From assembly GCA_018656555.1 (NCBI GenBank), contig JABHZQ010000007.1:1-51911 (forward strand): a stretch of 51,911 nt of DNA, read 5' to 3'. This stretch comes from an archaeon. GTDB taxonomy: Archaea > Nanobdellota > Nanobdellia > SCGC-AAA011-G17 > GW2011-AR17. Position 1 is the stretch's first letter, and each line of letters begins with the position of its first letter. The notes beneath the pieces are model-generated. The model made no database searches. It had not been told where the DNA came from and saw nothing but the letters and a program-made list of their open reading frames with translations. Below, one piece after another: positions 5,527 to 51,911 of the stretch. A program made the translations under genes and the position numbers.

Positions 5527-5567
5527 TTTTGGATTTGCGTCTAAATTAAAAAAAGGTTAAAAAAAAT

Positions 5568-5876
5568 TTAACCGAATAGTGCTCCTAAACCTGCAGCAGC
5601 TTCTTCAGTAGATTTTTTCTCTTCTTTCTTCTCTTCTTTCTTTTCAGCTGGTTTATTATCCCCACCTTGAGCTGGAGCAGCTTGTGCAGCAACTGGAGCT
5701 ACAGCAGCTTCTTTGACTGCTTCGTCAATATTAACTCCATCTAAAGCTGCAACTAAGGATTTAATTTTACCATCATCTGCAGCAACACCTGCTGCGTCTA
5801 AGACTTTTTTAACACCTGCTTCGTCTACTGGCTTTCCTGCCTTATGTAATAGCATAGCCGCATAGATATATTCCAT
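5568..5876 (-). CDS. rpl12: Ribosomal protein P1 (archaeal L12)
   Basis: Acidic stalk protein of the large subunit, 102 residues. The N-terminal helical dimerisation domain begins [19 protein letters not shown]. An Ala/Pro hinge and a charged [10 protein letters not shown] segment follow, then the conserved tail [10 protein letters not shown] that recruits translation factor GTPases. All features match archaeal aL12/P1. It is the last gene of the L1-P0-P1 operon, 17 bases after P0. A strong GGAGG precedes its start. Confidence 0.97.
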
Positions 5877-34374: not shown

Positions 34375-34467
34375 AAAAATTTTAAAAGAAAAGAGTTATT
34401 TAAAGGTTCTGAGTAATATCATTTCCTATTAGTTTAACCATTGTCGAGTAGTAGCAAAATCAAAAGA

Positions 34468-34510
34468 CTTATAAATGGTTAAAAAATTCTTCAACCAAAG
34501 AGATATAAAG
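34468..34510 (+). promoter_or_regulatory. Promoter region of the ubiquitin-like/radical SAM operon
   Basis: Two TATA-like elements, CTTATAAAT (34,468-34,476) and GATATAAAG (34,502-34,510), precede the ATG at 34,539. The downstream one is 29-37 bases ahead and would give a very short leader; the upstream one would give a leader of roughly 40 bases with GGTGA as ribosome site. The following ten genes have no obvious internal promoter. Confidence 0.45.
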
Positions 34511-34538
34511 AAAAATTAAATCCCATTCGGTGATATAT

Positions 34539-36038
34539 ATGCTCGATACACGATCCATAAGACAACATTTCCCTTATTTGCAGGGAGATCTGGCCCTAAA
34601 TGTACAGAGAGAATTTCCAAGAGATAGAACTTTTTTGGATAACACTGCTTCTACACAATTACCTTTACCAGTTTTTGAAAGAATTGCTGAATCTCTTTTT
34701 GAGTATGCTAATATTCATCGAGGAGAGTATGATGCTTCACGAAGAACAACTGAAGATTTTGAAAGAGCCTATAATACTGCTGCTAATCTAGTTAATGCTG
34801 ATTCTTGGAGAGAGATTATGTTTGGTAGAAATGCTACTGAGATGGTTAATCTTATTATGAGAGGTATTGCTGAACAGATTAGAGATGGAGATAATATTGT
34901 TTCAACTCAACTAGAACATAATTCCAACTATGTACCTTGGTTTGGTTTACAACAGATGCTAAAGAAGAGAGGAATTAATATTGAAATTCGGTTGGCTGGT
35001 TTTGATAGAGAGACTGGAGAATTAGATCAAGGAGAACTTGAAAGTTTAATTGATGGTAAAACTAAATTAGTTAGTGTTACTGGTGCTTCTAATTTTTTAG
35101 GATATAAACCGAATGTACCAAGAATTGGCGAGGTTGCACATTCTTCTGGTTATGAACATACTGACGGTAGAAAAGGTTCTTACTTCTTGGTTGATGGTGC
35201 TCAATTAGTACCTGGAAGTCCAGTTGATGTTAAAAAAATGGGAGCTGACTTTTTAGCTTGGTCTTTCCATAAAATGAGTTTACCTTTAGGAGTTGGTGGG
35301 CTTTTTGCAAGAAAAGAAGTTATTGAAACTTTTGATCCATTCTTATATGGTGGAGATATGATTTATGATGTTCAAGAGGGAGCTGTTGAATATCAAGAGC
35401 TACCTTGGAAATTTACTGCTGGAACTCCCAATGTTATTGGAACTCTGGCTACTGGTTTTGGAACTAGTTTTTTGATGCACTTAGGTTTAGGAAACTTAGG
35501 ATCAGAAGAGGCTAGAGCTAAATTTATTGAAACACAAGCTTTTATGAATACTCCACGAGGAGATTTTGAGTTACCTTTTGCTGTATCAGAAAGAGATAGA
35601 GAGGTTTGGATTCCTTACTTGAGATCTAATCCTGGTAAAATGGCAATATTCAAAGATCCTGCACTGAGATTGGCAGAGACAAGAAGAATTATAGATGTTG
35701 CTATGGGCAATATCGAAACTCATGAACAAGAGTTAACTCAATCAATGATTGAGGCTTTGAGTGGAATTCCAAATGTTACTATTTATGGTCCTAAAGATGC
35801 AACAAAAAGAACAGGCTTGGTTGCATTTAATGTTAATGGTGTAGATCCACAAAATGTTGCCTTTGAATTAAACAGATTAGGTGTTGAATCAAGGAATGGT
35901 AATCACTGTGCATCTTTGGCTCATAATTATTTAGGAATTGAAGGAAGTGTTAGGTTTAGTTTCTATGTTTACAATGATCAATCAGATTTAGATAAAGCAG
36001 TTGATGCTGTTCGAGAAGTGGCTAGGAGGGTTGCATAA
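34539..36038 (+). CDS. SufS-type (group II) cysteine desulfurase with insertion
   Basis: About 499 residues from the ATG at 34,539 (MLDTRSIRQHFPYLQGD), with GGTGA just upstream; a GTG 9 bases earlier is less likely. PLP-dependent class V aminotransferase that takes sulfur from cysteine as an enzyme persulfide. Lys245 in AWSFHKMSLPLG binds PLP, preceded by VDGAQLVPGSPVDV. The catalytic Cys457 is in ESRNGNHCASLAHNYL, the group II form of 'R.G.HCA'. Compared with SufS (about 410 residues) there is an insertion of roughly 80 residues at about 310-390 (LGSEEARAKFIETQAFMNTPRG...). First gene of the operon; its stop overlaps the next start by one base. It probably supplies sulfur for the E1-like protein or Fe-S clusters for the radical SAM enzymes. 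Confidence 0.9.
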   Translation: MLDTRSIRQHFPYLQGDLALNVQREFPRDRTFLDNTASTQLPLPVFERIAESLFEYANIHRGEYDASRRTTEDFERAYNTAANLVNADSWREIMFGRNATEMVNLIMRGIAEQIRDGDNIVSTQLEHNSNYVPWFGLQQMLKKRGINIEIRLAGFDRETGELDQGELESLIDGKTKLVSVTGASNFLGYKPNVPRIGEVAHSSGYEHTDGRKGSYFLVDGAQLVPGSPVDVKKMGADFLAWSFHKMSLPLGVGGLFARKEVIETFDPFLYGGDMIYDVQEGAVEYQELPWKFTAGTPNVIGTLATGFGTSFLMHLGLGNLGSEEARAKFIETQAFMNTPRGDFELPFAVSERDREVWIPYLRSNPGKMAIFKDPALRLAETRRIIDVAMGNIETHEQELTQSMIEALSGIPNVTIYGPKDATKRTGLVAFNVNGVDPQNVAFELNRLGVESRNGNHCASLAHNYLGIEGSVRFSFYVYNDQSDLDKAVDAVREVARRVA

Positions 36039-37981
36039 TGGAACAATTACAAAGATTAATTCAAGAGAGTGGCTTAGAAGATCAAGCTGCATGTAAAGAT
36101 AATATTTTGATGTTAGGAAATTCACTTTTTGAAGCTTTTGGAATAAATGGTGGATTGGAAACAGATTATGAGAGAGGTTATGAAAAAGCAAGAGAATTTT
36201 TAGGAAGAGTTTGTGGTGTTTTTGATGATCCTACTCACTTAGTTAGAATAGCACCATTTGCTTATGCTTTCTTAGGAGAGGAGATGTTTAATAGAACTTT
36301 AGATGTTGTTTTACAAAAAGCAAGAGATAATCCTGATGACCGATCAATTTTAGATCAAGTTTTTAGTGGTGCTACTTTATTGAGACCTGAACTTAGAGCG
36401 GCCTTTTTATCTGATATTAGTGCAGCAGATGTTTTAGATGATGGACTTTTTGGTATTGATGATTATATTTCAGATGTTGATCCTAGTTTACAATTTGAAA
36501 GTGCAGATGCATTTCCAAGTCAGTTTACAACTGCTAATGTTAGGAAAGCTACTGAGTTACTTGGAAAATATTTACAGATGGGTGTTTTTCGTTCTGGAGT
36601 AGGTTTTACTGAGAATTTTGAAGCATTAAATCAAAGTATGGAAGGGTTTGGATATTTGATGGAAAGATCTACTGATGATTTAACTTTAATTGTTACAAGG
36701 GATCCTGTAAAGTTTATGTCTATGGGTTTAGGTAATGTTGCTTTTACAGATAGAATTACTGCGCGACCTCAAGGTGATGGTGATCAAAAAGATTTTAGAT
36801 ATCCTGGAACTGTTCTTGTTGATGATGATGTATCTTTACAAGAGGTTCAAAGATTCTATGCAGATGCTACAGTTGTCTATCTTAATAGAGATGTTCCTAC
36901 TGGATTTGAGCATTTAGTTGTTGGTGATGATGAAGATGTTATTGGAGCCCATTTAAGATTTATTTCAAAGAATCGGAAAGAAGGCTTGGTTCATCTTGGA
37001 GCTATGTTAGAGGCAGAAGTTAGAAATGCTGAAGATTTAGTTAGTAGAGGGAATGAATATTTCTTAGATGTAAGAAAAGGATTAGAAGATTTAGGAAGAA
37101 GAGATCTTATTGATAGAATGGTTGAAGCTGGAGGATATAGTGTTCCTCACAGAACTGATGCTAATTTAATGGTTTTAGTTTCTCCTAAAAGAAAAGATTT
37201 AGCAGATATATTTGAAGGAAGAGCTGGAGCGGATAAGAGAATGATGTTTTATAGAGAATTGCCTACTATTGAAGATACTGGAATGCCTTTTGTTTTTGTG
37301 ACAACTGAAGCAATACCTCAAAGTGAAATACTTGCAGCTTATCCTTCTGCAACTATCTTGTATGTTGCTGAGAATGATGCTAAGGAAAAAGCAATTTTAG
37401 CGGTTGATGAGAATGCTTTTGTTGTTAATGAAAAAACTGTTGCACCAAGAGGTAGGTTTAGAGGTACAGATAAAGGTAGAGTTGGAGATTGGGTTGTTAA
37501 TAGTTTCTTTGATAGAATTGCAAGAGCAAGAGGAGAAGGAATTACTAGTATGTATGATATTGCAAGAGGAATATCTGATGAAGTGAAAGATAGAAGAGAT
37601 AAAATAATGTTTGCAACCCATCTTAGAGGTTTTTATGATGAAGCAGCCCCTTATTATCGACTGCAGGAACAATTTGGACAGATGCCATTAGTTTTGCAAT
37701 TGACTGATGGTGTTCTTATGGAAAGTTGTCCAACTGGTGGATGTTTTAATTTAGATGCACCAGACACTGGAGGTTGTTGTGGTGGGGGAAATCTTCCAGG
37801 AGTATTGATTGATTTTGCAATTGCATATAGAAAACAAGTAGGTGAAGAGAGGTTTATGCGGGAATTAACTGCATATCATGATGGAGACGTAAGAGAACCG
37901 TGGTATTTTGATAGTACCCACTATCAAAGACACTTTAAAGGTTTGACAGAAACAGCAGATCAAGATGGAATGATCTTATAA
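36038..37981 (+). CDS. 647-residue protein with internal duplication and CPTGGC Cys-rich motif
   Basis: Not recognised. The N-terminal 210 residues are helical. Two similar segments follow, at about residues 214-310 (LTLIVTRDPVKFMSMG ... YADATVVYLNRD) and 376-475 (LMVLVSPKRKDLADIF ... YPSATILYVAEND). Each looks like a small alpha/beta domain ending in a 'DE-x-(V/F)' strand. Near the C-terminus Cys564 and Cys569 (SCPTGGCFN) and Cys580-Cys581 (TGGCCGGG) form a Gly/Cys-rich loop that could hold a metal, an Fe-S cluster or a persulfide. The same CPTG-x-C motif opens the JAMM protein two genes on. Position directly after the desulfurase suggests a sulfur acceptor or scaffold; this is inference. 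Confidence 0.75.
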   Translation: MEQLQRLIQESGLEDQAACKDNILMLGNSLFEAFGINGGLETDYERGYEKAREFLGRVCGVFDDPTHLVRIAPFAYAFLGEEMFNRTLDVVLQKARDNPDDRSILDQVFSGATLLRPELRAAFLSDISAADVLDDGLFGIDDYISDVDPSLQFESADAFPSQFTTANVRKATELLGKYLQMGVFRSGVGFTENFEALNQSMEGFGYLMERSTDDLTLIVTRDPVKFMSMGLGNVAFTDRITARPQGDGDQKDFRYPGTVLVDDDVSLQEVQRFYADATVVYLNRDVPTGFEHLVVGDDEDVIGAHLRFISKNRKEGLVHLGAMLEAEVRNAEDLVSRGNEYFLDVRKGLEDLGRRDLIDRMVEAGGYSVPHRTDANLMVLVSPKRKDLADIFEGRAGADKRMMFYRELPTIEDTGMPFVFVTTEAIPQSEILAAYPSATILYVAENDAKEKAILAVDENAFVVNEKTVAPRGRFRGTDKGRVGDWVVNSFFDRIARARGEGITSMYDIARGISDEVKDRRDKIMFATHLRGFYDEAAPYYRLQEQFGQMPLVLQLTDGVLMESCPTGGCFNLDAPDTGGCCGGGNLPGVLIDFAIAYRKQVGEERFMRELTAYHDGDVREPWYFDSTHYQRHFKGLTETADQDGMIL

Positions 37982-38002
37982 TAAAATTTGGAGGCAAATA
38001 AA

Positions 38003-38692
38003 ATGGCTACATTAGGAGCATGTGGGGATGAAAGACCTGAAGATAGAAAAGCAGAGCAAAAAAGAGCAAAAAAAGTACATAAATTCAACGAGATAGGAGA
38101 GATGCCAATTACAATGGTTGCTTATCCTGGATGTATTGAAGGAGATAGAGTTCCTGTTTCTGTTAAAGGTGATGATAGAGCAGTTTTACTTTTTGGTACA
38201 GCAGACATGATTGCAAGATATGTAATTGGAGAAGAAGTTGCATTACCAAAAAAAGGTAAGGGTATTAAATCTATTCCTAAAGCACTTAGGGGACAAACAT
38301 TCAAAAGAAATGTTACTAGAAGATATGAAGAACCAGTTGAAAGAATTGGAGATGAAATGCATGGAACTGGTGGAGTTGGAGAATTAGCTAAGAGACAAAA
38401 TAAAACCTATAAGGGATATACTCTAAAAGCTAATGGTGACAGTTTAACTGCTGACTCTATTGTGAATAGTTACTTCACAGAGATGGTCTTTGTTGAGGGC
38501 CCAGAAGGTAGACCAGTACCTAAATCTGTTGATGACCTTGTTGCTGAAGATGTAAAAATCCTTAGAAAAGATCAGGAAGTTCATGTTTTAGGTGGAGTTG
38601 AAATGGTTATAACTGCGATTCTTGTTTCAGGACAATATGAACCTGCAGCAAAAACCCCTGCATATGGAGATGACATTACATCAAGAATATGA
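38003..38692 (+). CDS. 229-residue protein, candidate ubiquitin-like modifier precursor
   Basis: Starts at the ATG at 38,003 (MATLGACGDERPEDRK) behind GGAGG at 37,990-37,994. After a charged N-terminal segment come two similar-sized beta-rich parts, residues about 33-110 (MPITMVAYPGCIEGDRVPVSVKG...) and 135-210 (TYKGYTLKANGDSL ... LRKDQEVHVLGGVEM). The second part ends in LRKDQEVHVLGG, Gly197-Gly198, followed by a 31-residue extension; another GTGG lies at residues 121-124. A ubiquitin-like precursor cut after Gly-Gly by the JAMM protease would look like this, but the beta-grasp fold is not proven from sequence. Its stop overlaps the E2-like start (ATGA). Confidence 0.75.
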   Translation: MATLGACGDERPEDRKAEQKRAKKVHKFNEIGEMPITMVAYPGCIEGDRVPVSVKGDDRAVLLFGTADMIARYVIGEEVALPKKGKGIKSIPKALRGQTFKRNVTRRYEEPVERIGDEMHGTGGVGELAKRQNKTYKGYTLKANGDSLTADSIVNSYFTEMVFVEGPEGRPVPKSVDDLVAEDVKILRKDQEVHVLGGVEMVITAILVSGQYEPAAKTPAYGDDITSRI

Positions 38693-40137
38693 GTCTAGAA
38701 ACAACATTTTTAGATAGGATTGCTGAGAGGCAATCCTCTTTTGTATTATTTAAAGGTCAGGCTTATGCTATTACTGAAGATCCAATTAATGGAAATTTCT
38801 TGGATATTATGGGAAGCAGAATGGCTTTAGTTCCTTCTATGCCTTTTAGAGATTTTGAAAGGTTAGATGAACAACTTTATGGGGCTGATGTTGAAAACTA
38901 TTGTGCTAGATATGTTCGTGAAAAAATTGATAGTGAATTAAGAGCTGAAGATGAAGTAAGAAGAGAAACTTCTCGAATTAATACTTTAAAATATTTAATG
39001 GATAGATTATTACCTCATTTAGTTGCAAAAAAATATAGTTCTGATGAAATACTGTTACATGAGGTTCTTGGAACTGAAGTGGATAAAGGTCCTGTGGATC
39101 TAGCACGAGATGAAATAAGAGAAAAACTAAATCATGATTTTGGTGTTGAGGATATTGAAGTTGATGAAGATCCTGCTGAGAGAATGAGAGCTAATGTTTT
39201 GGCGAGAGAGAAAGGAGAGTTAGATAGAGCACCTTTAATGGGTGAAGCTGGAGAGTATGATTCTGTTTTACAGGCTGTTATAGGTAATCAACCAATTTAT
39301 GTTATGGATGGTAGATTGTATGCTCTTGAATCTCCGGGTGATATTGAAAGAGGAAAATTTACATTTGTTATGGGTGGTAGAGCTTATACTCCTTCAGAGA
39401 CAAGACTTCCAAGTTTAAGGGAAGTATCTCAAGAAATTTTGGAAAGGAGAAAAATGGTTTGGAGAATTGCTGCTCTTGAAAGGAGTCAAGATACTTTTGC
39501 AGGTATAAGAGATCAGATTCATACTGCAGAAGTTACTGAAAGACAGATGCATGAGTTGGCTAAGTTAGAAGAATTTGATTTAGGGAGTTGTGGTTTTGTT
39601 TTGAAAGATGGTTCTTATTATGTTTATTCAAGAGTTCCTAAGTTTGCAACACAAGATGGAAGAGATAAGGATGTTTTTTGGCCTTATGATGCAACAAGAG
39701 TTGCAATTAAGATTGGGTGGAGTGGGGGCCAAGCTCATAGTAGTGGTGATGGAGTTGTTATTGAGAAGAGAGAGTTTCATCCTTGTTTAAGAAATAGATC
39801 TAGTGGAGGGTGGAAAGGAATTTGTAACTTAACTCGGGGAGCGAGTGATTATGGAAAAACTCCTGCAGAGATGGTTAGAAAACTTTCTGATGCTGTTACT
39901 GTTATTACTGAACCTTTGTCAGAAATAAGTTTGAAAAGGCATGGGAGTCCAGGTAGTTATTCTTATTTTGGGGATAGTGTTGAGTCTATTTTAGGACAGG
40001 GTTCTCTAACAAGAGAAGAAGCTGAAGAACAAGGTTATGGTATTGTTGAAGTTATTGCAAAAACTTTGGAGTTAGAAGATTTACCAGAAATTGAAGAAGT
40101 GGAAGATGAGGGAGAGGATGGAAAAGTAGAGGAGTAA
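38689..40137 (+). CDS. E2 (ubiquitin-conjugating)-like protein
   Basis: 482 residues. Residues about 300-420 carry an E2-type pattern: LKDGSYYVYSRVPKF, DVFWPYDATRVAIKI (compare 'YPF.PP.V.F.T'), then FHPCLRNRSSGGWKGICNL with His364-Pro365 and the candidate catalytic Cys379 in GIC, as in the E2 signature 'HPN...G.IC', and a following helix (TPAEMVRKLSDAVTVITEP). The N-terminal 300 residues contain an internal duplication: FVLFKGQAYAITED...MALVPSMP (residues 18-65) and IYVMDGRLYALESP...AYTPSETRLPS (198-260). The C-terminus is acidic. The neighbouring E1-like and JAMM genes strongly support a conjugation role. The family assignment is from pattern, so it is probable but unproven. Confidence 0.78.
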   Translation: MSLETTFLDRIAERQSSFVLFKGQAYAITEDPINGNFLDIMGSRMALVPSMPFRDFERLDEQLYGADVENYCARYVREKIDSELRAEDEVRRETSRINTLKYLMDRLLPHLVAKKYSSDEILLHEVLGTEVDKGPVDLARDEIREKLNHDFGVEDIEVDEDPAERMRANVLAREKGELDRAPLMGEAGEYDSVLQAVIGNQPIYVMDGRLYALESPGDIERGKFTFVMGGRAYTPSETRLPSLREVSQEILERRKMVWRIAALERSQDTFAGIRDQIHTAEVTERQMHELAKLEEFDLGSCGFVLKDGSYYVYSRVPKFATQDGRDKDVFWPYDATRVAIKIGWSGGQAHSSGDGVVIEKREFHPCLRNRSSGGWKGICNLTRGASDYGKTPAEMVRKLSDAVTVITEPLSEISLKRHGSPGSYSYFGDSVESILGQGSLTREEAEEQGYGIVEVIAKTLELEDLPEIEEVEDEGEDGKVEE

Positions 40138-40141
40138 AAAA

Positions 40142-41923
40142 ATGGTTAAGAAGAAGAAGAAAAAGCAAGTAGATGATGAATGTCCTACTGGAGTATGTGG
40201 TTTAAATGGTGTACATAATGGTGGGTATGATGATGATGGTGATTTTGGTGATGAATTATTAGATATGGTTATGGGTGATGATGAGCCTAAAGTAGAAAAA
40301 GTTCCTGCTTTAGTTGATTTACTTCCTGCACAATTAGTAATTGAGGATAGGGCTTTACAGTTAGGTTATATGATTGGTCCTTTGACTCAACAGCATTATA
40401 AAAAAGCTTTAGAGGTTGGTGGATTTCTTATTGTTGATAGAGATGCTCCTGCCCATTATTTAGATTTTGCTATTCCTCATGGTTTACCTGTTACTTCAGG
40501 AACTGTTGTTATGGCTGATCATTATGATAATGTTGCTGTCGAGAATCGAGCTAATAATCAAAGAAATGGCACTCATCTAAAAATTGGTGCTATGTTTCAT
40601 ATTCATCCAAGTAAGGGAAATCAAGGTTTGTACCATAGTGGACAAGATGATGCTGCAAGTTTACAGTTACTTGGACGAATGGCAAAAACTACAAGAGTGG
40701 TTCATGAAGCTAAATTTCCTTTGTTTGAAGAGGCAATGAGAACAGAGTATGGTGAGGGCGAGTATGTTTTAAGAGGAGATGCTTTGAGTGATGCTATTCA
40801 GAGATTTGTTTATCCTGATGAACAAATGTTTAAAGAAGTTCTAAGAAGTTTTGGAATTAGAGTTCCAAGAGAGCTTAATAGAGATAAATTTTTAGGAAGA
40901 TTATTAGATACAATTGGAAAGGATACTCTTGAACCTAGAAAGGTGAATTATGCTGTTAGTTTTGTTTTTAATAATGGTGGAAAAGGACCTTATGTAAAAA
41001 TGACTGCTGAAGAGCGGTTTGCTATTTCAGGTAAGAAGAATGTTACTACTATTGATAATAGAAGTGGATTAAGTATAGTTAAATCTAATGTTGGAGTAAA
41101 TTTACCAACAGAGGAAGAAGTTTTGGCTCTTATTGCTGAGAGAGTTGTCTATAATCCTCCTAAGCCCCCTGCTAAAAAAGTTATTGGTGCAGGAGGAAGT
41201 CAAGGGGGATGGCAAAGTTGGGGTAGACAAGGTGTTGCTGGTGCTATTGGTCAATGGTTAGATGGTACAGGACAGGCTGGTGGTGCAATTCCTCTATCAG
41301 GAAGTAGTACTTATTATACTAGACCTGTAAGAAAAACTGTTGCTGAAAGAATTGCAAGTTTGGATGCATTGGTTCAAGCACAAGAACCAGATGATCAATC
41401 AGATGTATATGCAGAACTTATGGGTGAAGAGGTAGAACCTGTAAGAGCTAAACCAAAAGCTAAATCTAATCTTGATGTTATGGACAAAAGTGAAGAAGCA
41501 ACTTACACCAATGTGGAGATTATTGATCTTTTTGTTTTAAAGTTAGGAGCTTACATTACTGAAGCTAGACATAGTTGGGCAACTTATTCAACTTACCTTT
41601 ATGAATTGTTTGATGAGGGAATTGGAACCTATACAAAAAAAGATGGTTATGTGGGATTAAAAGATAGTGTTATGGAATTGGGTGAATTGGTTCAAGATAA
41701 TCCACAAATTGTTGAAAGACATACTCTGAGACCCTATAAATTTGGGCATGCAGGTGAAAATTTGATTAAAGAATATATGGCAGAGCGAGATGAGAGGACA
41801 GTTGACTTTATGTTATCTTTTGGTTTAGCTGCTGGATTCCCTGAAATGGATGCTGCTCTTGAAAGTTATGTGCAAGATGTGTTAGATTATGATCAAGAAG
41901 AAGCACCCGAAGGAGTAGAATGA
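40142..41923 (+). CDS. JAMM/JAB-domain metalloprotease
   Basis: 593 residues. The zinc peptidase motif is complete: Glu91 (LEVGGFLIV), His153 and His155 (MFHIHPS), Ser166 and Asp169 (HSGQDDAAS), the E...HxHP...SxxD signature of Rpn11- and Mov34-type deubiquitinases, with a slightly long loop between HxHP and S. The N-terminus is lysine-rich followed by ECPTGVCGLNG (Cys14, Cys19), echoing CPTGGC in the 647-residue protein. A Gly/Ser-rich linker (residues 340-400) leads to a helical C-terminal domain. Expected to mature a ubiquitin-like precursor or remove it from targets. Stop overlaps the E1-like start (ATGA). Confidence 0.88.
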   Translation: MVKKKKKKQVDDECPTGVCGLNGVHNGGYDDDGDFGDELLDMVMGDDEPKVEKVPALVDLLPAQLVIEDRALQLGYMIGPLTQQHYKKALEVGGFLIVDRDAPAHYLDFAIPHGLPVTSGTVVMADHYDNVAVENRANNQRNGTHLKIGAMFHIHPSKGNQGLYHSGQDDAASLQLLGRMAKTTRVVHEAKFPLFEEAMRTEYGEGEYVLRGDALSDAIQRFVYPDEQMFKEVLRSFGIRVPRELNRDKFLGRLLDTIGKDTLEPRKVNYAVSFVFNNGGKGPYVKMTAEERFAISGKKNVTTIDNRSGLSIVKSNVGVNLPTEEEVLALIAERVVYNPPKPPAKKVIGAGGSQGGWQSWGRQGVAGAIGQWLDGTGQAGGAIPLSGSSTYYTRPVRKTVAERIASLDALVQAQEPDDQSDVYAELMGEEVEPVRAKPKAKSNLDVMDKSEEATYTNVEIIDLFVLKLGAYITEARHSWATYSTYLYELFDEGIGTYTKKDGYVGLKDSVMELGELVQDNPQIVERHTLRPYKFGHAGENLIKEYMAERDERTVDFMLSFGLAAGFPEMDAALESYVQDVLDYDQEEAPEGVE

Positions 41924-43377: not shown

Positions 43378-45845
43378 TGGAGGAAGAAGAAGATTTTATT
43401 CTGGATCTATTTGAAGAGTCTCTAGATGCTGGGAAAAAAGAGGAAGTAATTGCTTGGGAAGCTCCTGCAGTTAATAGAGTTGCTAGGGTGTTGGAAGAGG
43501 GTAGGAGAGATGTTACTAATTATGATCCTTTTACAAATATTTTAGTGGGTTATTTAGTTAGAGAGGGGAGGAAAGGTTTGGTTGGAGAGTTGAATGGAGT
43601 TAGTCAAGAAGATAGAGTTAAAATATTATTAGCTGCTGAAGCTTTGGCTCCACATAGAGTTAATCCAAAAGTTAGCGATGTTGAATCTTTTGAAGATTAT
43701 ATGGGTGCAGTTGGTGTTGCATTTGGTGAAAGATTAGGAAGAATGTTGAGGTTGGATATGGAATTTAAGGGTGTTGAAGAAGCTAAAGCAGAAGGAGTTG
43801 AATTTGTTGATGAAATTGATCCTTTGTTTAGTGGTTTTAGAGCTGAAACTTTAATTGCTGCTAATGTTGTTTCTAATTTAGTTGGTGAGGTTGAGGTTGG
43901 AAGTTATGATGAATTAGCTAGAGCTGCTTTCTTAAATTTTAATGGTAGTGAAGGAAATGGAGTTTTAGATGTTACAAAAGTTCTTGTTGAAAAAAGTTTG
44001 GGTGCAGCAGATGTTGATTTAGATGTTGATACTGCTGTTGCAAGATATCAAGAGATTTTAGTTTCAAGATTTGGTTTTACTCAAGATTTGATTACTCAGT
44101 TAGAAAGGTTTCAAGGAATGACTTTTGATTTTAATGGAATGTCTAGAATGATTAGAACAGAATTTGAAGAGAGAACTGGTTATGTTCCTAATATTGGAAC
44201 TCATTATGATAGAAGAGCATATGAAAGATTGAAAGGAGAACTTCTTGAATTAGATGTAAAATTGTTTAAACCTCTTCCTACTGAACCGACTCAACATTTT
44301 AATAGTAGAGATTGGGCAAGACCACATCAGGCTATGGGTGAAGGTGGTAAACGTTATCATAGAAGAAGAAGTGAAACTATTGAAAAGCTTCCTCTTGGAA
44401 CTGTGGGTCATCTTGATGGTGATCATGATTTTGTGCCGACCAATAAAGGAGGATACTTTCATTTAAGATATAGAGAGTTGCAAAAGTTAGAAGAGGTTAT
44501 TCTTGAGGTTGCTGGGGCGGGTGGAGATTTTAGAAGAGGAGATAGAGTTAAACTTGTTAATAATTTAGGACCTCAATCACATTATGATACTGATGAATAC
44601 TATTATGGTGGAACTATAAGGGAAATGAAGCTAGGAATTGAAGGAGAGGTTATAACTGGAGATGATAGAATGGTTAGAATAGAGTTTCCGAGAAGAGCAT
44701 GGAATTGTCATCCAGATGAATTGAAAAACTTAACAAGAACTCCAGAAAAAATAGAAGATGAAAAAGATGAAAGAGAAGAATTGAAAGTTGTTATGGCTGA
44801 AGTTGTTAGTGGGGCTGAAGCTGATTTTGAGAGAGCAAAAGAGAATAAGGAAAGGTTGGTTAGAGATGGTGTTGATACTTTTAGAGCAATGGGTGTTGAT
44901 GATGGAGTTATAAGGTATTTCTTTGATCAATATTTAGATGATGTTGCTGAGTTTGGAGATTTTATGCCAGAGGGAACTATCTTTAATGAAATTATGGAAA
45001 TACAAGAGAGTATGAATTATGGTGGGCTAAGAGATAAAGTTGTTGCATTGGTTAAAGATAGGATGGATGTTTTAGTTAAAGTTGATGATGTAAGAGATGC
45101 TGGAGAGTATGGTAAGTTTAAGGAAGATCTTGTTGATAGAGTTTTACATGGATTTAAGGATAAAAAAGGTAAGAAAACTGAAGGGTTTGAAAGAGGAGAA
45201 CCAGTTATGTTGGATGAAGCTCATGGAAAATATCCAAAGGGAACTATTGCAATTTATCATGCTGATTGTGGGGATGATCATCATGTTGATTTTGATGATG
45301 GGGCTACTGATGTCCATATAGATGAAAGAGTGATAGGTGTTGCTGCTGCTTATGCTTTACCTAAGATTCCTACTGCATATGAGGGGATGAAAAAAGGAGT
45401 AAGGGTTAAGATTAGAAAAGATAGTGAGTATGCTCATCAAAATGATGGAGAAGGAGTAATGGTTAATAATTTTGGGGATGAAGAAGGAGGAAGAGAGCTG
45501 TGGGCCAAGGTTAAATTTGATAAGGGTAGAGGTAATAATTATAGGGAAAAAGATTTAGAACCGGTTGATCCTGCTAAATTAACAGGAAGGAAATTAAAAA
45601 AATATAACAAAGCTGTTGCTGCAATGGAAGAGTTGAAAGTTGGGATTGAAGAACAGTTAGGTCCTATAATTGCAGAGGCTGAGAGAGATCATGCTGATGT
45701 TAATAGAAGATTAGATGATCTTACTATGAAAACTATTGATACTTTTAGAAGTATGGGATTTGAGGATGAGGCTATTGGAACTATGTTTAGAGAAAACATG
45801 GGAGATACTTCTTATTTGAGAGAGAGGGAATTGTTAGACTATTAG
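43377..45845 (+). CDS. 822-residue protein with SH3-like (MIB/HERC2-like) barrels and MGF repeats
   Basis: Not recognised as a whole. Residues 1-375 are helical, with a FGFTQDLITQLERFQGMTFDF stretch that aligns with segments of the two following radical SAM proteins. Residues 388-454 are a barrel (GDRVKLVNN...EYYYGG...GIEGEVI...WNCHPDELKN) also present in those proteins. Two more barrels follow, at 604-652 and 670-730; the last (GVRVKIRKDSEYAHQNDGEGVMV...KVKFDKGRGNNYREKDLEPV) resembles the MIB/HERC2 domain of ubiquitin ligases. Two repeats DTFRAMGVDDGVI and DTFRSMGFEDEAI look like the MGF loop of UBA domains. A recognition or ligase-like adaptor is possible. Starts one base inside the E1-like stop. 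Confidence 0.75.
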   Translation: MEEEEDFILDLFEESLDAGKKEEVIAWEAPAVNRVARVLEEGRRDVTNYDPFTNILVGYLVREGRKGLVGELNGVSQEDRVKILLAAEALAPHRVNPKVSDVESFEDYMGAVGVAFGERLGRMLRLDMEFKGVEEAKAEGVEFVDEIDPLFSGFRAETLIAANVVSNLVGEVEVGSYDELARAAFLNFNGSEGNGVLDVTKVLVEKSLGAADVDLDVDTAVARYQEILVSRFGFTQDLITQLERFQGMTFDFNGMSRMIRTEFEERTGYVPNIGTHYDRRAYERLKGELLELDVKLFKPLPTEPTQHFNSRDWARPHQAMGEGGKRYHRRRSETIEKLPLGTVGHLDGDHDFVPTNKGGYFHLRYRELQKLEEVILEVAGAGGDFRRGDRVKLVNNLGPQSHYDTDEYYYGGTIREMKLGIEGEVITGDDRMVRIEFPRRAWNCHPDELKNLTRTPEKIEDEKDEREELKVVMAEVVSGAEADFERAKENKERLVRDGVDTFRAMGVDDGVIRYFFDQYLDDVAEFGDFMPEGTIFNEIMEIQESMNYGGLRDKVVALVKDRMDVLVKVDDVRDAGEYGKFKEDLVDRVLHGFKDKKGKKTEGFERGEPVMLDEAHGKYPKGTIAIYHADCGDDHHVDFDDGATDVHIDERVIGVAAAYALPKIPTAYEGMKKGVRVKIRKDSEYAHQNDGEGVMVNNFGDEEGGRELWAKVKFDKGRGNNYREKDLEPVDPAKLTGRKLKKYNKAVAAMEELKVGIEEQLGPIIAEAERDHADVNRRLDDLTMKTIDTFRSMGFEDEAIGTMFRENMGDTSYLRERELLDY
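44538..44740 (+). repeat. Shared SH3-like module, copy 1 (in the 822-residue protein)
   Basis: Codes for EYYYGG, then LGIEGEVI, then WNCHPDEL. The same spacing of Y-x-YGG, LG-x-x-GE and W-x-x-HPDE recurs in the two downstream radical SAM proteins. Confidence 0.75.
44871..44940 (+). repeat. Internal helical repeat with MG(V/F) motif, copy 1
   Basis: Encodes DTFRAMGVDDGVIRYFFDQYLDD. It matches a second copy at 45,735-45,800 (DTFRSMGFEDEAIGTMF) and is preceded in both by a charged helix. Confidence 0.65.
45384..45567 (+). other. MIB/HERC2-like domain within the 822-residue protein
   Basis: A GxRV start, a 'DGEG' turn, a (W/V)-K-F-D-x-G strand and NNYREKDLEPV end follow the order of MIB/HERC2 domains ('G..V.RG.D....DG..G.V...W.NG..N.YR...DL'). 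Found by eye, so a profile search is needed. Confidence 0.5.
45735..45800 (+). repeat. Internal helical repeat with MGF motif, copy 2
   Basis: Encodes DTFRSMGFEDEAIGTMFREN near the C-terminus. MGF between two short helices is the classical UBA loop. Confidence 0.6.
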
Positions 45846-45854
45846 GAGAAAAAA

Positions 45855-47254
45855 ATGAAAAATAGAACACTAACCTTGGTAAATGTTGTTAATGATGGCG
45901 ATTGTATAGAGCAACAAGAATGCCTGCACTATCTCTGGCGTATTTAGCTGCTCATACACCTGAAAATTGGGATGTAAAAATAGTTGATGAAACTGTTGAA
46001 CCCTTTGATGCATGGAAACATGTTGAAGGTTCAGATATTGTTGGATTCAGTGGTGGAAATGTATGTAATATTCATAGACTTACTGATCATATTTCTAGAG
46101 TTACAGAATATGATCAAGTTATGGGAGAAGAAACTCCAATTATTTTAGGTGGATATGTTGGCGGATTAAATATTGAAGGATTACCTAATAGAGTGGATGC
46201 TAGAGTTATTGGTCCTGGTGAATTAGCTTTACAAGAATTACTAGCTGATTTTGAAAATGGTGGAATGAAAAGAGAGTATGTTGGTCAAAGAGTTCCGATG
46301 AATGAATTAAGGACTCCTGATTTCTCTGGATTTAATGTTGCTGCTTATGGTAAAAATGTTAATTGGCCTGTAATGACTTCTGTAAGTTGTGGAAATACTT
46401 GTGGATTCTGTAGTGCAAGAGTTGTTTATGGTGATGGTTATGCAAGTAGATCTCCTGAAAAAGTTCTAGCAGATATGGCACAATTTGATCCTGATACTAG
46501 ACTTTATTTTGTAGACCCTAATGTTTTGCAACTTTCAAGAAATGGTAAAAGAAGAGCTAGAAAATTGTTTAAAGGCATGGCTAAACAAAATCATCCTTGG
46601 TTTGGATCTGCAACTTTTAGAGTTTCTGAAGATGAAAGAATGTTAGAAGCAATGGCAGAAAGTGGATGTAAGGGTTTGTTAATTGGATTTGATTCTGCTC
46701 TACCTGAAAGTTTACAGACTGTATCTGCTCCAAAATATAGAGTAAGAGAGGATCAAACTTTAATTGAATATTATGTTGAAGGTGTAAAAAGAATACAAGA
46801 AAAGTTTGGTATTGATGTTTTGGGAACTTTTGTTATTGGTTTTGATACTGATGATGAAAGAACTATTGCAAATACAATTAGGGTTGTTCAAGATTCTGGA
46901 ATGAAAGATGCACAGTATTTACCATTTACCCCTCTTCCAGGTACACCATCTTATAATGAAATGGAAGCAGCAGGTAGAATCATAGATCATAATCTTAATC
47001 GTTATGATTTTACTGATGTTGTTTTTAGACCACAAAATTTCTCTGGTGCAGAATTAAGAGATTCATTAGTAAAGATGTATGATGAAACCTTCCCCAGAAT
47101 GTTGGCAATCTATAGAAGATTTGGTTTGGTTAGAGATAGACCTGAATTGATTAAAGTTGAATCAATGAAGTTAAGAGCTGAAAGAGAAGAAAGAGCAGCA
47201 AGGGAAAGAGAAAGGAGAGGGAGAAGAAGGGGTGGAGGCGGAGGACATCATTAA
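45855..47254 (+). CDS. B12-binding radical SAM protein with apparent frameshift
   Basis: The radical SAM part is intact: CxxxCxxC in SVSCGNTCGFCSARVVYG, then GSATFRVSEDERML, GFDSALPES and GTFVIGFDTDDERT, with an N-terminal cobalamin-type domain (LYRATRMPALSLAYLAAHTPENWDVKIVDETVEP, GFSGGNV, IILGGYVGGL). The long frame opens only at a TTG (45,902) in mid-domain. The missing first strand, MKNRTLTLVNVVNDGD, is encoded in another frame from the ATG at 45,855 behind AGGAG. The frame changes by -1 near 45,897-45,902, so one base seems to be missing or the ribosome shifts. The tail is RRGRRRGGGGGHH, a basic, Gly- and His-rich end. No slippery heptamer is seen. Substrate unknown. Confidence 0.82.
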
Positions 47255-49524
47255 TGGAAGCTGCTTTACAACAACCTTCAACAGGAGATGCAATTGATAG
47301 TTTACTTAGGAAGACCTATCAATTAGTTGCACAAGATAGGATGCATCAGATTGCTGAAATAACTGGTAATCAAGGTTTAGTTCAAGAGTATGGTTCTGGT
47401 GTGAATAGTATCATAGATTTAGAATCACTTTTTGCATTTGCAGGAGAGTTACCTTCACAAGAAGTGCTAGCTCGTATGGTTAAAGCAAAAATTGTTAGTA
47501 AATATGGAGAGGGTGTTGGGGAAGAGGTTATAAGAGTTGAAGAGAGGAGAGAAAGCGAACTTGCAGATCCTCCTGTTGATTATGGTATGTTTGTTGGTGA
47601 GATTAGAGAGGGAATAAATGATAGATTTAGAATTAGTGTTCCTGAAGTAACTGTTCCAGGAAGAGAGGGTTATGGAAAACATAAAACTGAACTAGAAAGA
47701 ACTGTAGCAACAGAAATAGAAAGAAGATTAGATGGGAATTATGGAGAAATTATAGAAGTTACTGAGCTGGCTGGTTTTGATATGGATACTTTAGATCCTG
47801 AATATCATTATGGTGGAAATGAAGATGATCTTGCATTAGGAAGTAGAGGAGAAATTATTGAGGTTGGAGCGGATAGGTATTCTGTTATGGTTGATAGTGT
47901 TGAATGGCAATTACATCCTGATGAAGTTACTCTTACTGGTGAGAACAAATATGCTGGAGTGGATGTTGTTAAGGTTGTTAGAGATATAATTCAAACTGTT
48001 GAAGATAATAAAATGGAAGCTCATATTGCAGGGCAGATAGCAGCTATTAATCAAAATAGAGATAGAGATTTAGATATACGAACTCGTATTTTTAGAGAGG
48101 AATATGGATTAAGTATTGATCAAATATTGGCCATGCATAGAGAAGAAGATTTTGAATATGAAGTTCCAGGTCTACCTAAAGTTGGACCGGGTCTTGTCCC
48201 ATTTAGTGATTTGTATAAATTATTAGCAAAAGCTATTAGTCAAAGAACAGGAAAGGAAATATTGGGTGGGGCTGATGAAATCACTACTAGTGGTGAATTT
48301 AGAATTAATGTTACTGAAGCTGCTGATCATCTTGGTGTTGATAATGATTTGGTTTTAAGAGTTAGTAGTGAAGTTGCAGATATCTTAGATAAACAACACT
48401 ACCTAAAAGGTAGAGAATATGCTGCTAGAAATGGTGCTAAAGATGTTACAAGAGCTATGATTGAAGAAATGTTAGGTAGAGATGGTCTGCCTTGGACTAG
48501 AAGACTTGTGCTATATGCTAACAAAGATGTATATGAAGGAGGAGATCCTTTTGCACCTCCCTCTGAAGAACTATTCAGAGTTATAAAACTTGAAGTTGGT
48601 GGAGGTTGTGCTTATGGAAAATGTACCTTTTGTATGGAATATGCTGGTGCACCTTTCTTTGTTCATAAACAGGCTAAGTTTGAAGCCCATGCAAGAGAAG
48701 TTAAGAGATTGTTGGGAAGTGATAGTGAATATATTAGGAGAGTCTTTCTTTCAGGAGGAGATACTTTTGCTCTTCCAACAAAAAGATTGAAAGGTTATCT
48801 AAGCACTGTTAATGAACTTTTTAATGATGGTTATGAGAGAAATATTAGAAGAGTTGAAGCTTTTTCAAGAACAGAAGGAATTACAAGAAAGAGTGTTGGT
48901 GAAATTAAAGATTTAGTTGATCATAATCTTAGACTTCTTTATTGGGGAGCTGAAACTGGATCTGATGAACTTTTGGCTTATGTAAATAAGGGTATTACAA
49001 GAGCTAAAATGGATAAAGCTATTGCTAAATTAACAAGCACTTCGATGATGGTTTCTATTATGATTATGCCAGGGTTGGGTGGAATGAGATTTTATGATCA
49101 ACATGTAAGAGAGACAGTAGCTCTTGTTAATGCTTTGAAACCAAGATGGACAACTTTCCATACAATAACTCCAAAACCAGGAGCAAGATATGGTAAGATA
49201 ATGGCTGAAGAGATGGCTGCAGGAACTAATAGACCTCTAACTGAGGAAGAGGTTGTTGAACAGATGCATGATATTGTTGCAGGTATGCGTACAGGTTATA
49301 GAAATTTGGTTGCAACTTATTATCCACCCTCTGCAAAGATTGCAATTAATCCAGTTACATTTAGAGGTTATATGCATAGGGGAAATGGTCAATTTGGAAT
49401 TTTGACTGAATTGAAAGAGTGGTTTAGCCTAGGGGAGAGAGTACCAAGTCAAGATTTAGTTGATACTGATTTTAATAAAGGGAGTGGAATAAGAGCTTTG
49501 GCTAGAGGTGGAGAAGCATGGTAG
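47254..49524 (+). CDS. Radical SAM protein with N-terminal accessory modules (paralog 1)
   Basis: 756 residues. Residues 1-430 are accessory: a helical start (DSLLRKTYQLVAQDRMHQI), the shared barrel at 174-231 (EYHYGGNEDDLALGSRGEIIEV...WQLHPDEVTL), and REEYGLSIDQILAMHREEDFEYEV. The radical SAM core begins at FRVIKLEVGGGCAYGKCTFC with Cys452, Cys457 and Cys460, a CX4CX2C spacing seen in some COG1032-type proteins in place of CX3CX2C. FLSGGDTFALP, WGAETGSDELLAYVNKG and MIMPGLGGMRFYDQH follow. Paralog of the next gene, which it overlaps by 7 bases. Likely acts on a protein or peptide delivered by the accessory part; that is inference. Confidence 0.85.
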   Translation: MEAALQQPSTGDAIDSLLRKTYQLVAQDRMHQIAEITGNQGLVQEYGSGVNSIIDLESLFAFAGELPSQEVLARMVKAKIVSKYGEGVGEEVIRVEERRESELADPPVDYGMFVGEIREGINDRFRISVPEVTVPGREGYGKHKTELERTVATEIERRLDGNYGEIIEVTELAGFDMDTLDPEYHYGGNEDDLALGSRGEIIEVGADRYSVMVDSVEWQLHPDEVTLTGENKYAGVDVVKVVRDIIQTVEDNKMEAHIAGQIAAINQNRDRDLDIRTRIFREEYGLSIDQILAMHREEDFEYEVPGLPKVGPGLVPFSDLYKLLAKAISQRTGKEILGGADEITTSGEFRINVTEAADHLGVDNDLVLRVSSEVADILDKQHYLKGREYAARNGAKDVTRAMIEEMLGRDGLPWTRRLVLYANKDVYEGGDPFAPPSEELFRVIKLEVGGGCAYGKCTFCMEYAGAPFFVHKQAKFEAHAREVKRLLGSDSEYIRRVFLSGGDTFALPTKRLKGYLSTVNELFNDGYERNIRRVEAFSRTEGITRKSVGEIKDLVDHNLRLLYWGAETGSDELLAYVNKGITRAKMDKAIAKLTSTSMMVSIMIMPGLGGMRFYDQHVRETVALVNALKPRWTTFHTITPKPGARYGKIMAEEMAAGTNRPLTEEEVVEQMHDIVAGMRTGYRNLVATYYPPSAKIAINPVTFRGYMHRGNGQFGILTELKEWFSLGERVPSQDLVDTDFNKGSGIRALARGGEAW
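47773..47946 (+). repeat. Shared SH3-like module, copy 2 (radical SAM paralog 1)
   Basis: Encodes EYHYGGNEDDLALGSRGE followed by W-x-x-HPDE and TGEN. Near-identical to copy 3 in its first half, and related to copy 1. Confidence 0.85.
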
Positions 49525-51854
49525 CACAATTAGATCCAGGAATAAGTATAGGAACAACAACAAAAGTTGATACTACTTTTGATGATTTGTTTAGTACATT
49601 CTATAGACTTGCTGCTCAAGATAGTTTGATAAGAGCTATGGGTCCATTAAGAGAGACTGATGCTTTTGGTGAATATCAAGCACGAGTGTCTGATGTTCAA
49701 GACAGAGATAGTTATGATTCTTTTATGGGTTCTTTACCAAGTAATGCAGATATTAGAGCTGTTGTTAAGGCTGAAATTGTTGAAGCTTATGGAAGTTTTG
49801 ATGGACAGATAGGTGAGATTGAACAACAAAGAACTGCTGCATTAGAAAATCCAGAAGTTTATTATCCTGAATTTACTTCAGCTGTTATAGAAAGAGTTAA
49901 TGAAAGACTTGGTACTGATCTTGAAAGAGTTCCAGCTTCTAAAGATGACTATCCAACTTTTATAGGACTTTTGGAAGATGGTGTTAATCTATCTCTTGAA
50001 GAAAAACTAACTCCAGTAAATGGAGTAAGATATGCTGATGTTGTTGAAGTTACTAATATGAATGGATTTGATACATCTAATTTGGAGGATGAATATCATT
50101 ATGGTGGAAATGAAGATGATCTAGCATTAGGAAGTAGAGGAGAAGTCATTAATATTGTCTCTGGAGTTAGATATACAATTGTAGTTGATGGAAAAGAATG
50201 GCAAATTCATCCTGATGAGATTCAAGTTACTGGCGAGAATAGATTAGTTGCTTTGGTTGGTGAGGGAGATTATGGGGCAGCAGTAACTGCTTTTGTTGAT
50301 GGAATTGTAGAAGAGTTAACTCCTGAATTTATTGAAAGAGCTCGGGCTAAAATAGGGCAAGGTTTTGATGCTAAGGTTGTAGCAGTTACAAAAGAATTAA
50401 AAATAAAATATGGGTTGGTTGCTGAACAAGTAAGAGCCATTCATGCTGGAGAAGATTTTGTTTATGAGGTTGAAGGTGGAAGAGATGAAGGACTAACTTT
50501 ACCTTTTCAAAGATTAGCAAGTTTAGCTCTTAAGGCTTTAGGTTATAAAGTTGATAAACCTACAGTTACTATTCAAATTGGTTCTATTAAAAATGAAGAA
50601 GGATTTATAGATTTTGTATTAAATTCTGCTAAAGAGTTAAGAAATAAAGATTATGCTGGACTTGCAGGAGAACAGATGGATGTTTTATCACTTTTATTGA
50701 ATAATGAGTATGATGCAGTTAGTAGAAGATCTTTGCAAACTGGAGGAGAAAGACAGGGTCATATTTTAGAGGATACAATTGATGCTTGGATAAAGACAAG
50801 AACAACTGGTGGACAACTAGGAACTGCTTTTTCTTTAAATAGAGCTTTACTATATCATGATCAAGATATTTTTAGTTCAGTACCTTTTTCACCACCGTCT
50901 GAAGAATTACATAGAGTTATAAAATTAGAAGTTGGAAGTGGTTGTAGTTATGGTGCTTGTACTTATTGTACTGAATATGGTAGAGTGGATTTTACAATTA
51001 GAAAACTAGATGATTTTAGAGCACATGTTGCTGCAGTAAGGAAAAAAATGGGCAGAGATGTTTATAATATAGAAAGACTCTTTTTAGCTGGGGGAAATAT
51101 TTTTGCAATGCCTACTAAAAAAGTTCTTCAGTATAATGATATTGCAAGAAATGCTTTTAGAGGAGATACAGATATTAGAAGAATTTCTGCTTTTACAAGA
51201 ACAGAAGGTTTAGCTAAGAAAAGTGTTGGAGAAATTAATGACATTGTGGGGCATGGTTTGAATATGGTTTTCTGGGGTGTTGAAACTGGTGCAAATTCTG
51301 TTTTGGATTATGTAAATAAAGGAACAACTCATGAAAAAATGATGGAAGCTGCTTCAAAAATACCTAATAGTAATATGCAAGTTTCTGTTATGATCATGAC
51401 TGGTTTAGGTGGATTAAGACATTATGAAGATCATGTTGTTGAGACTACAAGATTATTGAATGCTATGCAACCTAGATTTGTTACTTTCATGACTGTTAAT
51501 CCAAAGCCTTGGTCTGTTTATGCAAAAAGAATGGCTGAAGAGATGGAAAGAGGAGAGAATATGCCACTTACTGATGAGATGGTTGTTGAACAGATGTATG
51601 ATATTGTTAGAGGATTAGATAGCAGGGCTTGGAGAGGACATAGATGTCTTGTTGGTGCTTATCGATTGCCTACTGAGAAAGTTGCAAATAATCCTGTTGA
51701 ATTTAGAGGAAGATTAGAAAATCATGGTGGTAAGGGACAAATATTAACTGGTTTACAAAATTTATTTAGAGGAGATTTTCAACCAAGTCCTTTGATTCCT
51801 GCTGGTGAGTTTAATAGAACCGGGAGTAGAATAAGAGCTATGCTCGAGGTTTAA
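49518..51854 (+). CDS. Radical SAM protein with N-terminal accessory modules (paralog 2)
   Basis: 778 residues with the same layout as the preceding gene: helical start (FDDLFSTFYRLAAQDSLIRAM), barrel at 183-241 (EYHYGGNEDDLALGSRGEVINI...WQIHPDEIQV), KIKYGLVAEQVRAIHAGEDFVYEV, then the radical SAM core with Cys476, Cys481 and Cys484 in GSGCSYGACTYC, FLAGGNIFAMP, WGVETGANSVLDYVNKG and MIMTGLGGLRHYEDH. The two proteins differ most in the 240-430 region, so they may act on related but different sites or form a heterodimer. The ATG at 49,518 lies inside the previous gene's last codons. Confidence 0.85.
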   Translation: MVAQLDPGISIGTTTKVDTTFDDLFSTFYRLAAQDSLIRAMGPLRETDAFGEYQARVSDVQDRDSYDSFMGSLPSNADIRAVVKAEIVEAYGSFDGQIGEIEQQRTAALENPEVYYPEFTSAVIERVNERLGTDLERVPASKDDYPTFIGLLEDGVNLSLEEKLTPVNGVRYADVVEVTNMNGFDTSNLEDEYHYGGNEDDLALGSRGEVINIVSGVRYTIVVDGKEWQIHPDEIQVTGENRLVALVGEGDYGAAVTAFVDGIVEELTPEFIERARAKIGQGFDAKVVAVTKELKIKYGLVAEQVRAIHAGEDFVYEVEGGRDEGLTLPFQRLASLALKALGYKVDKPTVTIQIGSIKNEEGFIDFVLNSAKELRNKDYAGLAGEQMDVLSLLLNNEYDAVSRRSLQTGGERQGHILEDTIDAWIKTRTTGGQLGTAFSLNRALLYHDQDIFSSVPFSPPSEELHRVIKLEVGSGCSYGACTYCTEYGRVDFTIRKLDDFRAHVAAVRKKMGRDVYNIERLFLAGGNIFAMPTKKVLQYNDIARNAFRGDTDIRRISAFTRTEGLAKKSVGEINDIVGHGLNMVFWGVETGANSVLDYVNKGTTHEKMMEAASKIPNSNMQVSVMIMTGLGGLRHYEDHVVETTRLLNAMQPRFVTFMTVNPKPWSVYAKRMAEEMERGENMPLTDEMVVEQMYDIVRGLDSRAWRGHRCLVGAYRLPTEKVANNPVEFRGRLENHGGKGQILTGLQNLFRGDFQPSPLIPAGEFNRTGSRIRAMLEV
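50064..50240 (+). repeat. Shared SH3-like module, copy 3 (radical SAM paralog 2)
   Basis: Encodes EYHYGGNEDDLALGSRGE, then W-Q-I-HPDE and TGEN. Confidence 0.85.
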
Positions 51855-51855
51855 A

Positions 51856-51911
51856 ATGGAATATCGTCAAATTCTGAGTCATATGATTTATGTTGCCAGA
51901 AAAGCTGGTGA
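51856..51911 (+). CDS. Start of a gene cut by the window end, possibly inositol monophosphatase-like
   Basis: An ATG two bases after the preceding stop opens MEYRQILSHMIYVARKAG, still open at the window edge. A helix with this 'A.KAG' ending is typical of the start of inositol monophosphatase/CysQ family proteins, but 18 residues are too few to be sure. The short spacing suggests it belongs to the same operon. Confidence 0.4.
   Translation, partial: MEYRQILSHMIYVARKAG

Follow-up and report, generated by a model that had tools for sequence, protein, structure and literature searches.

A predicted ubiquitin-like conjugation operon joined to cysteine desulfurase and radical SAM genes in a Nanoarchaeota genome

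We analysed a 51,911-nucleotide stretch of archaeal DNA (GenBank assembly GCA_018656555.1, contig JABHZQ010000007.1; hereafter the window), which carries an operon of ten genes at positions 34539–51854. The core of the operon, genes 3–7, is most likely a protein-conjugation system comprising a putative ubiquitin-like protein (Ubl), an E2-like protein, a JAMM protease, an E1-like enzyme and a large accessory protein. A cysteine desulfurase, a protein of no known family and three radical SAM proteins appear to form a sulfur/radical module added to this core. We put the probability of a conjugation system with such an added module at about 0.6, and we infer every reaction step, those of the added chemistry included. 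An earlier interpretation made from the letters of the DNA (the sequence-only reading) had proposed a prokaryotic ubiquitin-like conjugation operon physically joined to desulfurase and radical SAM genes, and gene content and order bear it out. It also took the DNA to be archaeal, correctly, since the host is a Nanoarchaeota (DPANN) metagenome-assembled genome (MAG) and its named relatives are Nanoarchaeota or Woesearchaeota MAGs. Its ten genes are all present, but it missed the Ubl, encoded by gene 3, and an eleventh gene at 51856. It further did not recognise the combination as one already described. We found no description of a combined Ubl cascade, desulfurase and radical SAM operon in open-licence PMC literature; most subscription papers and all preprints lay beyond that search, and the novelty is provisional.

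Gene order and its conservation in the phylum

The window spans contig C10 in full, part of a 97.7% complete genome of 1.08 Mb. All ten open reading frames (ORFs) lie on the + strand and nearly touch, as the sequence-only reading described, with spacings of −7 to +6 bp between neighbours and a sole exception of 56 bp ahead of gene 8. The cysteine desulfurase, two-domain E1 and three radical SAM proteins that it named were recovered by Pfam (PF00266, PF00899, and PF04055 at 5e-9 to 4.5e-8, respectively). Genes 2, 4 and 5 gave no Pfam match at all, and genes 3 and 7 gave sub-threshold matches only.

The order desulfurase, gene 2 (g2), Ubl, E2-like, JAMM, E1, gene 7 (g7), radical SAM was also present in G002, G165, G362 and contig JAHJEM010000050, with one additional gene between g2 and the Ubl gene in G362. 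G002 belongs to the same family as the window host and to another genus, and G165 and G362 belong to other families. A neighbourhood search in other genomes had been suggested from the sequence, and the same arrangement was found in four of them at about 25–61% protein identity. Because identities to the window were mostly 30–61%, and lowest for g7 (25–35%), the gene order has outlived extensive sequence change, and its recurrence is not chance. GC skew jumps to about +0.3 to +0.5 over positions 34000–51911, much higher than elsewhere on the contig; despite this, a chimeric contig is unlikely, because the operon was found again in other genomes.

In an E1 tree, seven operons, that of the window included, formed one clade with 100/100 support within a much larger Nanoarchaeota set. 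Five of the seven keep the desulfurase, g2 and a radical SAM protein with a g7-homologous N-terminal half. G144 (L065) has Ubl, E2-like, JAMM, E1 and g7 only, while L082 keeps Ubl through radical SAM and has a 77-residue desulfurase relic upstream, with g2 missing. Within G002 (L025), desulfurase and g2 are each interrupted by one in-frame TAA, and the remaining genes of the operon have none; these stops may be decay or MAG error. The simplest reading of this pattern would be one gain of the sulfur/radical module followed by later losses, a single origin being unproven by the tree.

Related E1 genes extend well beyond this clade. Of the 371 genomes sampled from the phylum, 39 (about 10%) had a match at E ≤ 1e-15, spread patchily over many families, and the order Ubl, E2-like, JAMM, E1 seen in genes 3–6 recurs in many relatives. 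E1, E2-like and JAMM genes occurred together in 36 of 46 loci examined, a count whose E-values were obtained with profiles built iteratively from few local sequences, so that individual remote assignments could be mistaken. In L070, L076 and L087, the gene immediately upstream of the Ubl gene encodes a proteasome-ATPase-like AAA protein; the L070 gene, when scanned, had AAA plus OB domains, and the L076 and L087 copies cluster with it. ClpX-like AAA genes are present in L068 and L073 and, by profile, in L097 and L107, and protein kinase-domain genes stand two or three genes after E1 in L074 and L079 (two families, one E1 clade). All 12 genomes checked had 20S proteasome genes. A link between these Ubl operons and protein turnover is plausible from such neighbours, and the AAA+-bearing Ubl-E2-JAMM-E1 operons are candidates for direct ubiquitin-proteasome-like operons. 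E1-E2-JAMM-type conjugation operons, of which we found no report in Nanoarchaeota in the literature searched, are now placed across that group, and the proteasome-ATPase-like and ClpX-like neighbours bear on the origin of ubiquitin-guided protein turnover.

The candidate conjugation proteins

The JAMM and E1 assignments are secure. Gene 5 (40142–41923, +) encodes the JAMM metalloprotease that the sequence-only reading had recognised, of a kind associated with deubiquitination or Ubl processing: residues E91, H153xH155 and S166xxD169 are invariant in 14 sequences, and PDB profiles matched BRCC36 (6.1e-7) and the archaeal (Caldiarchaeum) Rpn11 (1.7e-5). Elsewhere in the phylum, at positions 583–7920 of L071 (G320), E1 is preceded by a tandem pair of very large JAMM-profile proteins, of 1403 and 1026 residues. 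Gene 6 (41920–43377, +) encodes two ThiF domains (PF00899 in two stretches, 1.6e-36) and is the sole gene with ThiF matches in the genome. By alignment, the nucleotide-binding and NRQ motifs are present in its C-terminal ThiF domain, where Cys399 is invariant; its N-terminal domain lacks the NRQ motif and appears inactive. The C-domain aspartate D336 and Cys399 are 63 residues apart with no large Cys domain in between, a spacing that we take to resemble MoeB/ThiF.

Gene 3 (37988–38692, +; start at TTG 37988, or at ATG 38003 as judged from homologues) likely encodes a Ubl of beta-grasp fold, although this is not proven. The highest-probability Foldseek match to its AlphaFold2 (AF2) model (pLDDT 87, pTM 0.83) was Caldiarchaeum ubiquitin 6fno_D (prob 0.51, TMt 0.62; E 0.38, not significant), followed at lower ranks by NEDD8 and other ubiquitin-like folds, also with E-values that were not significant. 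Nearly all homologues have a Gly, often Gly-Gly, past the last strand and then a short C-terminal tail; in gene 3 the conserved Gly is at about residue 215. In Caldiarchaeum, Rpn11 processes the ubiquitin precursor by cutting off the nine-residue tail that follows Gly-Gly (PMC6043591).

Gene 4 (38689–40137, +) consists of a duplicated N-terminal hairpin-helix region and a C-terminal E2-like lobe (residues 290–458) bearing HP364 and Cys379. The E2-type motif noticed in the sequence holds up well across the family (Cys in 43/43, Pro in 40/43 and His in 36/43 members), and a His418 downstream of the Cys is invariant in a ten-sequence alignment. The E2 fold that the motif implied fared less well. 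The AF2 model (pLDDT 82) has its elements in the order known from E2s, with a meander of strands leading into the HP...C loop and a helix after it, and Foldseek returned E2s weakly (prob 0.10–0.15, TMt 0.30–0.36). No significant E2 match was found among PDB profiles, and a Pfam UQ_con search of 40 genomes gave no match at the family's operons. Alignment by hhalign to human E2 reference sequences was not significant; when forced, it put HP on HP and Cys on Cys. We call the protein E2-like because the Foldseek matches were weak and the sequence methods stayed below significance, and we regard an E2 fold as likely but not proven.

Gene 7 (43377–45845, +) encodes the large post-E1 protein g7, a possible E3 or adaptor. 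The N-terminal halves of radical SAM genes 9 and 10 are homologous to it (hhalign probability 96%, E 3.6e-9). According to module hidden Markov model matches, the same module forms stand-alone proteins of about 280 residues in core operons, beside E1 in several of them, and L075 has it in one protein with an E2-like domain. This L075 fusion and the sharing of the g7 module tie the radical SAM proteins to the cascade. L082 also carries, at 4218–5585 (−), a divergent 455-residue protein with the g7/radical-SAM N-terminal module, in which Pfam finds no radical SAM domain. A single weak Pfam match (0.086) in one member pointed to Mind-bomb-type SH3 repeats in g7, which we do not claim.

Sulfur and radical SAM genes and their possible role

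Gene 1 (34539–36038, +) encodes a SufS/CsdA-type cysteine desulfurase (PF00266, 2.7e-90; nearest NCBIfam model SufS). Its start at ATG 34539 is consistent with homologues, and the pyridoxal-phosphate lysine and active Cys460 are invariant in the homologue alignment. The adjoining g2 (36038–37981, +) has no match in Pfam, NCBIfam or PDB, and within the phylum sample it is specific to the operon, occurring in exactly the four genomes that have it in full. The conserved g2 C-terminus carries the motif CPTGGC...GGCCGGGN, and the JAMM protein of the window has CPTGVC in its N-terminal tail. The pattern CPxGxC is present in 5/5 g2 proteins and 4/5 JAMM N-terminal tails of full operons and nowhere else among 908 ORFs (288,367 residues), a restriction that we judged specific, without a formal probability. 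At that site the L081 JAMM has a single Cys, and the L082 JAMM has CX4C without the proline-glycine pattern. The Ubl N-terminus likewise has a Cys motif (CGDERPEDRK in gene 3), which is shared by the five operons that have desulfurase and g2 (both genes with a stop in G002), is replaced by Tyr in L082 and is missing in L065, the latter two being without desulfurase and g2. Because few lineages are involved, this correlation with the sulfur genes is suggestive only.

The host genome has a separate desulfurase adjoining IscU and, outside the operon, about 30 further radical SAM matches; no canonical ThiS/MoaD in it passes the family cut-off. Because of this other desulfurase beside IscU and the lack of a canonical ThiS/MoaD, the operon copy is probably dedicated; it is probably not the general Fe-S source of the host.

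Genes 9 (47254–49524, +; PF04055, 5.1e-9) and 10 (49518–51854, +; PF04055, 4.5e-8) each combine the g7-type N-terminal module with a radical SAM domain that has a CX4CX2C motif by alignment, and a gene 10-type protein is present in every full operon. Gene 8 (45902–47254, +) encodes a B12-binding-type radical SAM protein (PF04055, 1.6e-8; PF02310, 1.4e-6) with a CX3CX2C cluster motif at C163/C167/C170, and no counterpart was found in related operons. As called it begins at a TTG. An ATG at 45855, in another frame, reads MKNRTLTLVNVVNDGDC..., a B12-radical-SAM-like start, and is likely to be the true N-terminus in a different frame from the rest; the frame change in 45855–45902 could be an assembly error or decay. 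In G165 and G362, the radical SAM gene is followed by HD and CysQ/inositol-phosphatase-like genes. Gene 11 of the window (51856–51911, +; translation MEYRQILSHMIYVARKAG) is cut by the contig end, and its 18 N-terminal residues are similar to the CysQ/inositol-phosphatase-family gene in the same place in those two genomes. Its homologues match PF00459 (9.2e-36), and CysQ is the nearest NCBIfam model, under its cut-off.

These assignments suggest how a conjugation system with an added sulfur/radical module might operate. JAMM would trim the C-terminal tail of the Ubl, exposing its Gly, and may later strip the Ubl from targets. The two-domain E1 would adenylate and activate the Ubl, the E2-like protein would hold it on Cys379, and g7 may assist target choice or serve as an E3. 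The desulfurase would provide sulfur, with g2 as the likely relay, and the g7-type module would bring the radical SAM enzymes fused to it to the same partners. Most likely, operon proteins or Ubl targets would be modified in a sulfur- or radical-dependent reaction, possibly via a Ubl thiocarboxylate, with the CPxGxC-bearing tails as candidate modification sites. More tentatively, desulfurase and g2 may load sulfur onto the Ubl or the CPxGxC tails while the g7-fused radical SAM proteins act on the same operon proteins or on Ubl-selected targets, which would amount to a new kind of post-translational modification; this is possible rather than probable.

Several observations weigh against a conjugation system with this added module. 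No significant sequence or Foldseek E-value connects gene 3 with ubiquitin or gene 4 with E2s. Gene 8 is confined to the window and may be frameshifted. Desulfurase and g2 carry stops in G002, have decayed or disappeared in L082 and are missing from G144, with the cascade intact. The cascade is thus kept without an intact pair in three of seven lineages and does not need it.

The operon might instead be a biosynthetic sulfur-carrier pathway, which we consider unlikely. The E1-activated Ubl would receive a Gly thiocarboxylate from the desulfurase, radical SAM, HD and CysQ/inositol-phosphatase-like enzymes would build a sulfur metabolite or nucleotide, and the role left to the E2-like protein would be that of a scaffold or a divergent acyl carrier. 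Desulfurase, E1, Ubl and JAMM together are a known sulfur-carrier set, JAB/E1/Ubl operons have been tied to sulfur assimilation and siderophore-like metabolism (PMC1779556), and both the short stretch before Cys399 of the E1 and the phosphatase and HD genes of G165 and G362 favour such a pathway. However, those systems have no E2-like gene, such genes having been described in other operon types (PMC1779556). The HP...C protein is kept across the whole family, even in operons without any sulfur gene, and related core operons add AAA+ unfoldases and kinases, not metabolic enzymes. A role in molybdenum cofactor or thiamine synthesis was rejected, there being no ThiS/MoaD-family match over cut-off and no ThiF match outside gene 6.

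It is less probable again that the desulfurase feeds only the radical SAM clusters as a local Fe-S supply, the modules being neighbours without common chemistry. Radical SAM enzymes require Fe-S clusters, the desulfurase is SufS-like, and a reduced genome may need local cluster support. Against this, the separate desulfurase with IscU and the many other radical SAM matches lie elsewhere in the genome, CPxGxC and the Ubl N-terminal Cys connect the sulfur genes with JAMM and the Ubl, and the radical SAM proteins bear the g7 module.

BilABCD has an antiviral role. A Bil-kind defence operon marking virus proteins is nevertheless improbable here: the four-gene order equals BilABCD as listed (PMC11354881) and the distribution is patchy across many families, but defence models matched only E1-E2 and desulfurase (DndA/SspA) look-alikes, those genes of the 34 kb upstream that were scanned resemble housekeeping genes, relatives have proteasome-ATPase-like and ClpX-like partner genes in keeping with protein turnover, and no g7 or E1 relative was found in viral contigs. 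Viral carriage was rejected on the last of these grounds, and plasmid carriage because plasmid matches were generic partial ThiF only.

Comparison with known systems

Bil operons encode BilA (Ubl), BilB (E2), BilC (JAMM) and BilD (E1) in that order (PMC11354881), and genes 3–6 are predicted to supply these four functions in this order too. As in BilD, the N-terminal domain of the E1 looks inactive and the C-terminal ThiF domain active, and the putative Ubl has a tail for JAMM to process (PMC11354881). Unlike BilB, which has a CEHH motif (PMC11354881), the E2-like protein here has HP...C. The E1 also has only the 63 residues from D336 to Cys399 in place of a Cys domain of about 80 residues, and the E2-like protein and Ubl have no detectable sequence match to known families. 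The operon is, in addition, archaeal and has the extra desulfurase, g2, g7 and radical SAM genes.

Caldiarchaeum-type operons, consisting of Ub, E1, E2, RING E3 and Rpn11, are likewise archaeal and share the Ubl precursor tail. The JAMM here matches the Caldiarchaeum Rpn11, and the Ubl is nearest to Caldiarchaeum ubiquitin by Foldseek probability. In contrast, no RING family was among the Pfam matches of the ten operon genes, the E2-like protein is far more divergent, and the gene set is different, with sulfur and radical SAM genes added.

Operon type 6d of Iyer et al. 2006 comprises Ubl, JAB, E1, E2-like and a helical protein (PMC1779556), and the present operon shares its stand-alone Ubl, JAB, E1 and E2-like genes and an additional protein. 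The E2s of type 6d have no upstream His but do conserve one downstream of the Cys (PMC1779556), whereas here the upstream HP and the downstream His418 are both present. Moreover, type 6d is bacterial and has not been described with desulfurase or radical SAM genes (PMC1779556).

The ThiS/MoaD and SAMP/Urm1 sulfur-carrier systems resemble the operon in having an E1-like enzyme, a small Gly-ended Ubl and desulfurase and JAMM partners, and gene 1 is genetically linked to E1 and Ubl in five operons (with a stop codon in G002). They differ in that the operon here includes an E2-like gene and radical SAM proteins with an adaptor-like module, in a genome without a canonical ThiS/MoaD passing the family cut-off. 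The variant brings sulfur carriage and protein conjugation, the two roles that ubiquitin relatives have had historically, into a single conserved operon, and makes their link testable within one small gene set.

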